From Armatimonadota bacterium (GTDB taxonomy: Bacteria > Armatimonadota > Fimbriimonadia > Fimbriimonadales > Fimbriimonadaceae): a stretch of 64,000 bases of DNA. Shown piece by piece: positions 17,896 to 21,865 of the stretch. Both the position numbers and the translations under genes were made by a program. Where the stretch lies: assembly GCA_016789105.1 (NCBI GenBank), contig JAEURN010000004.1:434001-498000 (forward strand), written 5' to 3'. Positions within the stretch are counted from its first letter, which is position 1. Each line of letters starts with the position of its first letter. The notes beneath the pieces were generated by a model. It saw nothing but the letters and a program-made list of their open reading frames with translations, was not told the origin of the DNA and made no database searches.

Positions 17896-18654
17896 CTAGT
17901 GCCCTTTGCACTCGATGGTGACCGTCACCGGCTGTTCGCCGGTTTCGCCACGGGCACGAGACCGCGAAGCAAACGTTCCGCAGTAGGCGGTGAGGAAACT
18001 GTTTTGGTCTCGCTGGGTCAGCGGTTTATCTAGACTCGAAGAGCCTTGGTAGTACATATTGTCCAGACTGTCGTCGCTGTGACCCTGGAGGAAGAGCGCA
18101 TGGCCGAATTCGTGCGTGCATGTGGCCTTCAGCCCATCTTGGAACTGGGCAGCCGTCATCCCAGGCCACGTGTTGATCGTCACGTGGGCGCTGACGATTT
18201 GCCCGGTCGAGGGGTAATAGGTGACTTGAGTGAATCCGAGCGTGCCCCCGCCCCCGGGAGCCGTGGAAAGCTGGTTGACATCGACGGTGATATCGGCGCC
18301 TGAAGAAGAGCCTACCTGGGTCACCACCATGTTTCCGCTGCTTGCCGCCACCCACCGTTGCATGGCCGCCCAAAAAATATCGTTTGTGTCATAGCTGTTG
18401 CCGCCGTAGGTGTTGACCTGGTTGGAGGCAAAGTAGACGTTGATGGGGAAGCCGGGCCAAGTCAGGATCTTGTTCGGCTGGTTGTCGCCGGGGTCGGTCG
18501 CCTGGACGTAGTTTGGGGTGAGGAAGTTGGGCCCGCAGGCAAGCGGCGTGGTGTTTCCGCCGGGCGTGCTGTTTCCTCCGCCTCCGCAACCGATTGCAAA
18601 AAGAACGATGGCGGCCGAAACCACTGCCACAAATGCGGGGTGCAACTGCTTCAC
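17896..18654 (-). CDS. Secreted lipoprotein with matrixin-like zinc protease motif
   Basis: 252 aa from GTG 18654. Signal peptide with lipobox FAIGC (Cys about 23) followed by a Gly-rich linker. The zinc site THEFGHALFLQGHSDD matches HExxHxxGxxHxxD of metzincin (M10 matrixin-type) proteases, and a Met-turn candidate MYY follows. Upstream strands (TVDVNQLSTAP, IVSAHVTINT) fit the metzincin fold. Probably an extracellular, membrane-anchored protease; substrate unknown. Convergent with the ABC ATPase gene, 63 bp between stops. Confidence 0.82.
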   Translation of the reverse strand: MKQLHPAFVAVVSAAIVLFAIGCGGGGNSTPGGNTTPLACGPNFLTPNYVQATDPGDNQPNKILTWPGFPINVYFASNQVNTYGGNSYDTNDIFWAAMQRWVAASSGNMVVTQVGSSSGADITVDVNQLSTAPGGGGTLGFTQVTYYPSTGQIVSAHVTINTWPGMTAAQFQDGLKATCTHEFGHALFLQGHSDDSLDNMYYQGSSSLDKPLTQRDQNSFLTAYCGTFASRSRARGETGEQPVTVTIECKGH

Positions 18655-18705: not shown

Positions 18706-19482
18706 TCAGGTCCCGCTGACTTTGTTTTCGGCGACGCCCTTGTGAACGGCAATTTGGGCGGTCAAGAGCTCCGCTTTCTTTTTGGGGATCCCGGTCAGCA
18801 GGGTTTGTGGAAGTTCATCCAACAATTCTTTCACTTGGTTTCGGTTCAAGGCCAACATCTGCTGAAGGCAGGAGATCATTTCGTTGCTGTCGGGCGCCTT
18901 GACCAAAATGAGGTCGTACGGTTGGTCGTCGTCGTGGATGGTATAGGCTTCAAAGACCTTTTTGGCCGCCGTTTGTTCGTCGGTTGCGATGGGGATCTCC
19001 CGGTCGCAGGATTCGCAGATCAACCCAGTGGATTTTTCGCTGTAGTAATTGAGCGTGTTGCAGTAACCGCAGCGAACCTGATAGACGTTGAGGATCTTGC
19101 CGCCCTCGATGGGCACTTCCCGGTTGCAATGGATACATCGGAAATCACTTTCGGGGGCGGCCGTCAAAATGTTGGTTTTCTGGCAGAACGGGCATTCAAC
19201 CGGATGTCCTTCGACTTCCCGGACTTTGGTGAGTCGGTAAATGCCAAAACCGAGTAACCCGATGCCGATCACTCCCAAAACAACGCCAAGTCCCGAAAAA
19301 AGCCCGCCTTGGCTCCGTTGGTAATAGAAGACGACCGCGGCGATCAGCAGAATGACCACGCCGGGGGCGAGGCTGAACACGGCATCGGCGGCAATCCGCT
19401 CTTTGGCGTCGGCCGCTTGCATCAAAACCGGTTCGATTTCCGCGCTTTGTCCTTCTTGGGAGATGTTTTCGTCTTCGCTCAT
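18706..19482 (-). CDS. Membrane zinc-ribbon protein with C-terminal L7/L12-like domain
   Basis: 258 aa. Two membrane segments (about residues 38-53 and 61-82), then two to three treble-clef/zinc-ribbon modules with paired cysteines (CPFCQKTN, CIHCNRE, CGYCNTLN, CESCDRE). The last ~65 residues, starting YDLILVKAPDSNEMISCLQQ and continuing NRNQVKELLDELPQ then GIPKKKAELL, align by eye with the ribosomal L7/L12 C-terminal domain (FDVIL ... VIKAVR ... GLKEAKDLVE ... GVSKDDAE). Such domains occur outside ribosomes in a few membrane proteins of unknown role. Cytoplasmic placement of ribbon and L7/L12-like parts is inferred. Confidence 0.82.
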   Translation of the reverse strand: MSEDENISQEGQSAEIEPVLMQAADAKERIAADAVFSLAPGVVILLIAAVVFYYQRSQGGLFSGLGVVLGVIGIGLLGFGIYRLTKVREVEGHPVECPFCQKTNILTAAPESDFRCIHCNREVPIEGGKILNVYQVRCGYCNTLNYYSEKSTGLICESCDREIPIATDEQTAAKKVFEAYTIHDDDQPYDLILVKAPDSNEMISCLQQMLALNRNQVKELLDELPQTLLTGIPKKKAELLTAQIAVHKGVAENKVSGT

Positions 19483-19516: not shown

Positions 19517-19546
19517 GCGGCCGGACGCTGTCAAGTGTCCGGCCGC
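19517..19546 (-). terminator. Hairpin between third prepilin and zinc-ribbon gene
   Basis: Arms GCGGCCGGAC and GTCCGGCCGC (10 bp, loop of 10) lie 24 bp past the prepilin stop. No T-run on the minus strand, so this may be a weak or factor-assisted terminator. Confidence 0.45.
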
Positions 19547-19570: not shown

Positions 19571-20377
19571 TTACCGGAATCGCCAGATCACGTTGCCAAA
19601 TGTGTTCAAAGATTTGGCACTGTAAACTTTGGCGTGCCCGTCGGCAAAGATGACCGGTGCCCGCCCGTTATTCTTCTTGTCAGCTCCAAAGGGGCACTTG
19701 ATCGGCTTAAGTGCGCCGGCGCTCAAGCTGGGAGAGGCCGGATAATTTTCGTCGCCAGTTTCGGTGACCAAGTCCCGGTCGCTGATCATCGGGAGGCCTT
19801 TTTTATAGTCGCCGCCTGGGTCGTTGAGGCCGTTGTACGGATTGAACACGTAGCCCCGGTGTTTGGTCGTTGTGACATCTTTGGGCGCGTTGGCCGTCAC
19901 CGCGAACAGTCCGGTTTTGGCGGTTTCTTCGGCTTGGCTGAAGTTGGCCGCAGAGGTGAATCCTTCGGTTCCTGGGAGCGCGGCTCCGGGGACGGCGGTA
20001 CTGTTGGGGTCGACCCCGGTCGCATCACTGTAGCCAACCGACTGGTGCCGACGGGTTGCCCAACTGGCGGCGAATCCCCCGCCTGAGTCGGGAGTGATGA
20101 AAATCTGTTCATTTTTGACGTAGGGTGAGAGCCCTTGCGTCCAAATCGTCGGATCCAAGGCCGGATTGACGTCGCGCATAGAAGCCGGGACGAAAAAGTC
20201 GTCGTAGTCGCCGGCATAGATCATGACGCTCATGCCTAATTGCCGCATTTGGGAAAGCGATTGGGTTTGCTTTGCCGCCACCTTCGCCTGGGAAAAAACG
20301 GGGAAGAGGATAGCCGCCAAGATGGCGATGATCGCGATCACGACCAAGAGTTCGATGAGGGTGAATGCTTTTCGCAT
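19571..20377 (-). CDS. Type IV prepilin / pseudopilin-like protein (third copy)
   Basis: 268 aa from ATG 20377. Leader MRKA, then [19 protein letters not shown] and LFPVFSQAKVAAKQTQS; SLSQMRQLGMSVMIYAGDYDDFF replaces the YLSDYDD segment of the other two copies; the end has APVIFADGHAKVYSAKSLN. No lipoprotein follows it. The frame stays open far upstream of 20377, but that extension is out of family and would overlap the sigma-factor partner gene. A TATCAT hexamer on the minus strand at 20406-20401, preceded by CTTTTTGTGT, resembles the -10 block of the tandem copies but lies only 24 nt from the start. Confidence 0.9.
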   Translation of the reverse strand: MRKAFTLIELLVVIAIIAILAAILFPVFSQAKVAAKQTQSLSQMRQLGMSVMIYAGDYDDFFVPASMRDVNPALDPTIWTQGLSPYVKNEQIFITPDSGGGFAASWATRRHQSVGYSDATGVDPNSTAVPGAALPGTEGFTSAANFSQAEETAKTGLFAVTANAPKDVTTTKHRGYVFNPYNGLNDPGGDYKKGLPMISDRDLVTETGDENYPASPSLSAGALKPIKCPFGADKKNNGRAPVIFADGHAKVYSAKSLNTFGNVIWRFR

Positions 20378-20432: not shown

Positions 20433-21275
20433 TTACCGGTTAGCCGAGCGGTCGGCTGGCTCTCCGGCGCCAGGGCGGCCGGTCGGGATCGGCTGGAGCC
20501 CGGAATCCGGATCACCTGGGCCGGAATTCGGCTCCACAAATCCGGGGAGCGTGCCTGCCCCGGGGGCGTTGGGGTCTCGCGCGGGAATGAGGAGGATCGA
20601 ATCGGGGGACTGCACCGAGGCGGTGAACCCGAGTTCCGCCCCCAGTTTTTCCAAGACTTGGAGGGCGGGCAGGTCGCGGAAATCAACCGCAATGGTCGGG
20701 TCGGGCATGCCTGGGGCCGATTCCAACCGGATGCCCGCTTGGATCCCGACATCGTTGAGGGCGGCCGAAAGCGAGGTCTGCCGGGCGACAAGGGTCACAC
20801 GCCGGTCAACTGGTCGTTCGGCTTGGATGGGCGGCGTATCCCCCGGGCCGGTCGTCGTTGGCGGATTGTTCACCGGATTCGGCAGGGAGTTTCCGCCGGA
20901 TTGGGGGTTGCCGTTGTTGGCCTCGATTCCCGGTTTGATCTGCCCAGGGTCGTAAGTGGGTTCGGGCGCATTGCGGGATTCGATAAACCGAAGTGTGCCG
21001 AGGGTGGCAAAAACGGCACCGGCCACCAAAATAGCGGCGGCAAGCGCGGCCGCCCAGCGGGGCGGCCCGGCAGAAAGGGGTCTGGCCGAAGGCATGAACC
21101 GCTCGGGCTTTCGCTTGGGTGCCGCCGTGACACCTTTGAGCCCGGCGATCATATTGATGCGCGATTGCAGTTCTCCTTTGAGCTCAGGATGCTGCTTGAG
21201 GAACGCGTCGATCTGCTTGGCATCTTGGTGCTCGGCCAATTGCCACAAGATGTCGTTGTATTCGGTGGCGCTCAC
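20433..21275 (-). CDS. Membrane partner of ECF sigma factor with STN-like domain
   Basis: 280 aa from GTG 21275, which overlaps the sigma-factor stop as GTGA. Residues 1-55 are helical and acidic (YNDILWQLAEHQDAKQIDAF), as in anti-sigma N-termini, though no zinc-binding HxxxCxxC is seen. One membrane segment (WAAALAAAILVAGAVFAT) follows near residue 80, then a Pro/Asn-rich linker and a domain with RRVTLVARQTSLSAALNDVG and IAVDFRDLPALQVLEKLGAE, the pattern of secretin/TonB short N-terminal (STN) domains. Likely an anti-sigma factor whose periplasmic STN domain senses an envelope signal. The C-terminal tail is Pro/Gly-rich. Confidence 0.75.
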   Translation of the reverse strand: MSATEYNDILWQLAEHQDAKQIDAFLKQHPELKGELQSRINMIAGLKGVTAAPKRKPERFMPSARPLSAGPPRWAAALAAAILVAGAVFATLGTLRFIESRNAPEPTYDPGQIKPGIEANNGNPQSGGNSLPNPVNNPPTTTGPGDTPPIQAERPVDRRVTLVARQTSLSAALNDVGIQAGIRLESAPGMPDPTIAVDFRDLPALQVLEKLGAELGFTASVQSPDSILLIPARDPNAPGAGTLPGFVEPNSGPGDPDSGLQPIPTGRPGAGEPADRSANR

Positions 21276-21865
21276 AGTCCCACTCCGTCGATGGTTTCCC
21301 CAGAAATCTTCTCGTAGGCTTCGCGCAACCGTTCGCGGGCTCGGAACAGCCTGGTTTTTGCCGCGTTGGCCGAGCACCCCATGCTATCGGCGATTTCTTG
21401 CAGGCTGAGTTCATCGCCATAAAACAAAGTGAGGATCGCCCGGTCGTTGGGGTGGAGTTGCCCCATGGCTTCATTGATCCTGGGATCGTTGTCTTCGGTG
21501 GGCGGGACTCGCTCCGGAATGGATTCGATTCGGTCGTCGAATTCGGCTTCCCGTTTTTTGTATTTGAGCTTGCGCGCTTGCTGGATCGATCGGTTGACGG
21601 CGATGCGGAACAGCCAGGTCGAGAACTTAGACCTGCGATCGAACCGGCCGAGGTTCTTATAGACGAGGGTGAAGATCTCTTGGATGGCGTCGGCGGCTTC
21701 GTCGGCGTCTCGCAAAACACCGTAGGAGATGCCGTAGACCCGGTCGTAATACTTTTCGTAGAGGGCTTGGAAGGCATGGGGGTCTGACGACAAAACCCTA
21801 TCGACCAGCAAGAGATCCTCGTCGAATTGTTCAGGTTTCACGTGGTCGTATGCCTTAGACAACAC
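21272..21865 (-). CDS. ECF-type RNA polymerase sigma factor
   Basis: 197 aa. Region 2 with LYEKYYDRVYGISYGVLRDADEAADAIQEIF and SKFSTWLFRIAVNRSIQQAR; region 4 with LHPNDRAILTLFYGDELSLQEIADSMG and AKTRLFRARERLREAYEK. Start is GTG 21865 (a TTG next to it is possible). Translationally coupled to the STN-domain membrane protein, the standard sigma/anti-sigma arrangement. It probably autoregulates from the 84-bp gap upstream. Confidence 0.92.
   Translation of the reverse strand: MLSKAYDHVKPEQFDEDLLLVDRVLSSDPHAFQALYEKYYDRVYGISYGVLRDADEAADAIQEIFTLVYKNLGRFDRRSKFSTWLFRIAVNRSIQQARKLKYKKREAEFDDRIESIPERVPPTEDNDPRINEAMGQLHPNDRAILTLFYGDELSLQEIADSMGCSANAAKTRLFRARERLREAYEKISGETIDGVGL

Follow-up and report, generated by a model that had tools for sequence, protein, structure and literature searches.

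In the 64,000-nt stretch of DNA from a member of the Fimbriimonadaceae (Armatimonadota) that was analysed here (the window), we found a gene encoding a membrane zinc-ribbon protein with an L7/L12-type C-terminal domain (CTD), which we label L12L (Table 1). The CTD of this protein is a true homologue of the CTD of the ribosomal stalk protein L7/L12, beyond what chance would produce. The site in helices 4 and 5 has not decayed in L12L but has been swapped for a different set of conserved residues. On balance, we think it probable that L12L is a membrane-anchored adaptor, with an L12-type head re-tuned to a cytosolic partner other than the translation GTPases. L12L is a clear example of a core domain of translation that, with its fold intact and its binding site rebuilt, has been moved to the membrane, and it has been conserved there through much of the Armatimonadota. 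The partner of L12L would show what the L12 fold recognises besides translation GTPases, and would also assign a role to an unannotated gene that nearly all Fimbriimonadales carry.

Table 1. Features of L12L and its surroundings (window positions unless a contig or locus is named; G000 is the genome of the window)
Feature	Positions	Strand	Basis
L12L coding sequence (258 aa)	18706..19482	minus	ORF; ATG at 19482, TGA at 18706
Two-helix membrane hairpin (residues 23-58 and 63-89)	19216..19416	minus	AF2 helices, pLDDT >90
Zinc ribbon 1 (residues ~93-130; C97, C100, C116, C119)	19093..19206	minus	Invariant cysteines; strands in model
Zinc ribbon 2 (residues ~133-166; C138, C141, C156, C159)	18985..19086	minus	Invariant cysteines; weak PF18912 match
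Flexible linker (residues ~167-187)	18922..18984	minus	pLDDT 51-80; residues 172-175 <50
L7/L12-type CTD (residues 188-254)	18721..18921	minus	1ctf superposition; profile match to PDB L7/L12; profile-profile match to RplL
Helix 4-helix 5 hairpin (residues 199-222), equivalent of the bL12 translation-factor patch, residues changed	18817..18888	minus	Per-site and charge comparison with RplL
Sigma-70-like promoter TTGACA-17-TACACT, 23 nt ahead of the start codon	19506..19534	minus	Consensus scan
Type IV pilin-like protein with N-terminal signature, upstream neighbour	19571..20377	minus	ORF and start; there in part of the family
Protein with one TM and a weak match to STN, anti-sigma-like by position (start uncertain)	20433..21275	minus	PF07660 E 2.8e-4, below cut-off
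ECF-type sigma factor, upstream neighbour	21272..21865	minus	Sigma70_r2 2e-16; Sigma70_r4_2 4e-15
Pyrophosphatases with a TM8-TM9 insert	L031, L034, L036, L043, L048-L050 and others; own copy G000:C3:190628-193585		

Domain organization and predicted topology

An AlphaFold2 model of L12L was made with 39 orthologues as input and has a mean pLDDT of 90. The hydrophobic stretches of the protein fall within its two long helices, and the CTD follows the order strand-helix-helix-strand-helix-strand over residues 189-255. The eight ribbon cysteines are invariant, both in the 39 orthologues and in 25 diverse orthologues. L12L has two consecutive ribbons with two CxxC pairs in each, the arrangement by which DZR and DZR_2 domains are recognised; the Pfam scores lie below the curated cut-offs, and PF18912 (DZR_2) is matched weakly at residues 134-166. 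Two membrane helices and cysteine-paired ribbons had been proposed in the first-pass annotation, and both are recovered in the model.

The distribution of basic residues gives a prediction of the topology. Across 46 orthologues, the flank ahead of the first helix has on average 2.39 K+R, the loop between the helices 0.52 and the flank beyond the second helix 2.76. By the positive-inside rule, this bias places both ends of L12L, including the CTD, in the cytosol, in agreement with the earlier reading.

Two NCBIfam matches were rejected as zinc-ribbon or TM look-alikes far under their cut-offs. These were PRK02935 and the DmmA family (NF041259), the latter with 27.6 bits versus a curated cut-off of 60 and its best stretch at residues 87-125, a match to the cysteine ribbon. 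PADLOC and searches of phages and plasmids returned no match for L12L.

Homology of the C-terminal domain

In the Pfam scan, PF00542 scored weakly against L12L as a single sequence (E=0.021, below the cut-off). Since this score is indecisive, a family profile was needed. PF00542 is matched by 36 of 39 L12L orthologues at E up to 1, the best at 1e-7. A profile of the L12L family, built without any ribosomal seed sequence, reached the L7/L12 chains in the PDB (E. coli L7/L12) at E=5e-7 with the whole domain aligned, and a profile of the CTD by itself reached the RplL proteins of the same genomes, again over the whole domain, at E 5e-13 to 2e-5. Comparison of the L12L CTD with RplL by hhalign gave a probability of 96.5 (E 7.5e-10). 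The fold evidence, which comes from a predicted model and not an experimental structure, consists of a superposition of the CTD on 1ctf (Z 11.7, rmsd 1.2 Å over 67 residues, 25% identity) and of a Foldseek search in which the best 12 matches are all L7/L12. The first-pass annotation had seen the L7/L12 CTD pattern in the last ~65 residues, had asked for a profile search, and had named beforehand the result that would refute it, a predicted C-terminal fold failing to superpose on that CTD. The superposition on 1ctf is the opposite of this refuting result, and together with the family profile and the hhalign comparison it bears out the assignment.

The same fold is found in ClpS. In the model, the L12L CTD has the beta-alpha-alpha-beta-alpha-beta order and superposes on both 1ctf and ClpS, which places L12L in the L12/ClpS fold group outside the ribosome. 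ClpS chains superpose on the model with Z of about 9-10, the best with Z 10.4, 3.0 Å and 8% identity. However, hhalign against 37 ClpS-family sequences of relatives and three seeds gave a probability of 1.0, versus 96.5 for RplL, and the L12L alignment shows no NDD-type motif following strand 1. Identity with ClpS was rejected on these grounds. A tandem pair of ClpS-family genes is present in the genome at G000:C6:107603-108198 and also in relatives, where the NDD motif is changed to NNE or similar in some of the ClpS-family copies.

The genome also has an ordinary rplL gene (G000:C10:50094-50294; 100.6 bits versus PF00542), preceded by an L10-like ORF that was recognised by eye, and a normal rplL was present in all 41 genomes scanned. 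With an ordinary rplL elsewhere in the genome, the stalk role is already filled, and the possibility that L12L is itself the ribosomal stalk protein was rejected.

Replacement of the translation-factor site

In bL12, GTPases bind at a patch on helices 4 and 5 that is conserved and positively charged (PMC6753160), and mutants in K65 and K70 bind EF-Tu less (PMC10602876). We compared the corresponding positions in 35 RplL of the same group and 45 L12L orthologues, using the numbering of E. coli bL12. In the RplL set, K65, K70, R/K73, G79, L80, K81 and K84 are nearly invariant. L12L replaces K65, V66, K70, R73, G79, L80 and K81, and retains only K84 (42/45). Taking the five basic positions K65, K70, R73, K81 and K84 together, 4.97/5 are kept in RplL versus 1.18/5 in L12L. 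The residues conserved in L12L instead are E66 (40/45, with E or D in 44/45), Q73 (39/45), N79 (41/45), R80 (44/45), N81 (36/45) and Q82 (37/45). The mean net charge of helix 4 is +1.97 in RplL versus -1.53 in L12L, and this helix is likewise acidic in the more distant L12L orthologues (-1.50).

Such strong new conservation in the former binding hairpin speaks for continued binding of some partner, which we infer is not a translation GTPase bound in the manner of bL12. Loss of the basic site makes the recruitment of a translation GTPase less probable; a GTPase of another kind may remain as the partner.

Distribution and selection

Orthologues of L12L are single-copy and occur in 60 of the 61 relatives sampled. 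Among the genomes of the family without L12L are those of genus g30, which are reduced to 1.5 Mb. In a sample of the phylum, L12L was also present in several other families of Armatimonadota. Many further families of Armatimonadota gave weak profile matches (E 1e-5 to 1e-14); judging by the few places listed, these appear to be matches to RplL or zinc ribbons, and they were not counted as orthologues. A scan across genomes with short conserved patterns of the close orthologues gave 69 loci, nearly all in records titled Armatimonadota or one of its subgroups, a few in records titled "bacterium" and one in a record titled "Methanoregulaceae archaeon", which we take to be mis-binned. No relatives were found outside the Armatimonadota, the only wide scan being this pattern-based one, which would miss distant relatives in other phyla. 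In genus g22 (G028 and G153-G155), the membrane and zinc-ribbon part is found without the L12 CTD, as in the G028 copy at C3:215909-216325 (L043), so the L12 head is not always needed.

L12L is under purifying selection, its CTD included. When the most similar pairs within the genus are compared, dN is far below dS in each of the three regions; for example, the CTDs of L003 and L004 have a dN of 0.013 and a dS of 0.615. Conservation of the CTD is roughly as strong as that of the zinc ribbons, and the CTD is kept almost everywhere.

Gene neighbourhood and promoter

Of 25 Fimbriimonadaceae loci examined, 22 have an ECF sigma factor gene and an STN-like gene ahead of L12L on its strand, with or without the pilin-like gene in between. 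An H+-pyrophosphatase gene lies downstream on the same strand in 11 of these loci and in three loci of another family of the order. A glutaredoxin gene is directly downstream of L12L in 12 loci, nearly all of them from other families of Armatimonadota, and in family f19 the gene upstream encodes a DUF4097 protein with a SHOCT-like domain. The neighbourhood, which varies by lineage, weakly suggests a role of L12L in envelope-linked regulation. A functional link with the H+-pyrophosphatase was not adopted, the gene being elsewhere (G000:C3) in the genus of the window and present in genus g30 without L12L. In the genus of the window, the downstream neighbour of L12L (window 17896-18654, minus strand) encodes a candidate secreted matrixin-like metalloprotease (PF00413 E 0.0014, motif HEFGHALFLQGHS) that has an N-terminal signal and a lipobox-like cysteine.

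The consensus scan for promoters found two sites versus 1.2 expected, which makes the site listed in Table 1 weak when taken by itself. Comparable promoter-like sites precede several orthologues, those of L003 and L004 included, and a search for shared upstream motifs turned up no more than a -10-like TATACTG at some loci. With promoter-like sites adjoining L12L, co-transcription with the sigma factor may not hold. The -35 hexamer TTGACA is enclosed by an inverted repeat, GCGGCCGGAC...GTCCGGCCGC (window 19517-19546), which could be either an operator-like site or the terminator stem of the upstream gene; it was not seen in those upstream sequences of close relatives that were inspected.

Other L12-like domains in membrane proteins of relatives

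The H+-pyrophosphatases of the Fimbriimonadales have an insert of ~260-390 residues between TM8 and TM9 that is predicted to be periplasmic. In the two copies scanned, no Pfam match was found in this insert, bar an L12-like stretch in G044 (QEUM01000009.1, isolate ATM1), where the pyrophosphatase adjoins L12L (L216:2051-5446, L190:7501-7716) and the TM8-TM9 insert contains an L7/L12-CTD-like domain. This extra stretch of ~60 residues, which the G042 and G046 pyrophosphatases lack, matches PF00542 at E 1.4e-4 and E 0.0026 in two scans. A single-sequence model of the stretch by itself (pLDDT 76) has the fold of an L7/L12 CTD, superposing on 1ctf at 1.5 Å with a Foldseek E of 4.2e-4. Its best counterparts in the genomes of that family are mostly L12L CTDs, in weak matches. 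Membrane pyrophosphatases have 16 helices and a cytosolic active site. By this topology the G044 insert would be periplasmic, on the opposite side of the membrane from the predicted location of the L12L CTD, and therefore no functional conclusion is drawn.

Two short 2TM proteins of the Fimbriimonadaceae, L213:373-990 (plus strand) and L214:1052-1699 (minus strand; PF13239 2TM), likewise join a membrane part to a portion of an L12 CTD, and they come from the same bacterial family as L12L. Their C-terminal ends match just the first half of that domain, and the hairpins mostly keep the basic translation-factor residues, for example AKLTVVKELRERSGLGLKEAKDAV, which is the reverse of L12L. These proteins are better candidates than L12L for the recruitment of a GTPase or ribosome.

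Proposed role of L12L

We propose that L12L is held in the inner membrane by its two predicted helices, with both ends in the cytosol, and that the tandem zinc ribbons would form a small, rigid cytosolic stalk. A linker of ~20 residues would then bear the L7/L12-type head, which is assigned by homology and by its computed fold. Tethered in this way, the head could use its helix 4-helix 5 hairpin to catch a soluble partner, in the general manner of the ribosomal stalk, the residue change in the hairpin having re-tuned it away from translation GTPases and toward a putative partner of another type. From its neighbours, such an adaptor might have a part in envelope-linked regulation. That the neighbourhood differs between lineages was counted against the adaptor reading, as were the promoter-like sites beside the gene and the genus that lacks the CTD.

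Rather than binding a partner, the conserved NRNQ residues could mediate self-association, in which case the CTD would mainly be a module that makes L12L a dimeric or oligomeric membrane protein. The L12/ClpS domain has been called multimerizing where it is inserted (PMC7159879), and the conserved hairpin could be a self-interface. However, bL12 dimerises through its N-terminal domain (PMC6753160), which is absent from L12L, and we consider this alternative unlikely. A second alternative is that L12L senses zinc or redox state at the membrane through its ribbons, with the CTD as a passive or structural terminus. This would accommodate the eight invariant cysteines, the glutaredoxin gene directly downstream in the 12 loci, and the one genus that lacks the CTD and keeps the remainder. 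It is rather improbable, given that none of the Fimbriimonadaceae loci examined has a glutaredoxin neighbour and that the CTD matches the ribbons in conservation.

The first-pass annotation had suggested that the CTD could act at the membrane as L7/L12 does on the ribosome, recruiting a GTPase or a ribosome there. True L7/L12 homology, the predicted cytosolic location of the CTD and the retention of K84 would agree with this suggestion. However, four of the five basic contacts are gone, together with the hydrophobic V66 and L80, helix 4 is acidic, and binding by bL12 depends on the positively charged site (PMC6753160), including K65 and K70 (PMC10602876). This part of the annotation is therefore not supported, and we regard it as very improbable. 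It is highly improbable that L12L acts as a ClpS-like adaptor handing substrates to an AAA+ protease, since the common fold (Z 10.4, close behind 11.7 for L7/L12) is offset by the profile-profile probability, the missing NDD-type motif and the tandem ClpS-family pair already in the genome.

The membrane-anchored adaptor is thus the reading that we prefer, and it can be tentatively extended to the history of the domain. The stalk head may have been co-opted early in the Armatimonadota as the general membrane docking head of a regulatory system, with its GTPase site charge-inverted for a new class of partner, and in one lineage the neighbouring H+-pyrophosphatase may later have acquired a copy of the head. 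We regard this scenario as possible but doubtful.

Comparison with known systems

The closest known relative of the L12L head is bL12 (L7/L12, RplL; PF00542 CTD, TIGR00855), with which it has the CTD fold and homology in common; the whole domains align with one short gap, and a flexible linker precedes the CTD in both. Ahead of the CTD the two proteins differ, in that bL12 has an N-terminal part for dimerisation and L10 binding, whereas residues 1-182 of L12L comprise the membrane hairpin, the two zinc ribbons and the linker. The bL12 N-terminal family is absent from the Pfam matches listed for L12L and its orthologues. L12L has also lost the positively charged GTPase site of bL12 (K65, K70, R73, K81, K84), and unlike rplL, which follows the L10-like ORF, the L12L gene is outside the ribosomal-protein locus. 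The ClpS adaptor (PF02617) has its overall fold in common with the L12L CTD, but no sequence relationship was detected and L12L has no NDD motif.

L12-type domains outside the ribosome, including some in membrane systems, are already known. L12/ClpS insertions occur in vWA proteins, and the domain has been described as multimerizing when inserted in other proteins (PMC7159879). Lipocone genes have been reported to adjoin genes for single-TM proteins that contain either a zinc ribbon or an HTH to which a ClpS-ribosomal L7/L12 domain is fused (PMC12419801); no Lipocone neighbour was recognised for L12L. Compared by description, the membrane ZnR/HTH proteins coupled to the Skillet-2 Lipocones have the L12-ClpS domain in the cytoplasmic region, as predicted for L12L, but they have one TM with the L12-ClpS domain on an HTH (PMC12419801), whereas L12L has two TMs, two ribbons and the CTD in one chain. 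As far as we searched, what is new in L12L is this combination of an L12 CTD with two TMs and two zinc ribbons, together with its deep conservation within a single phylum and its re-tuned patch.
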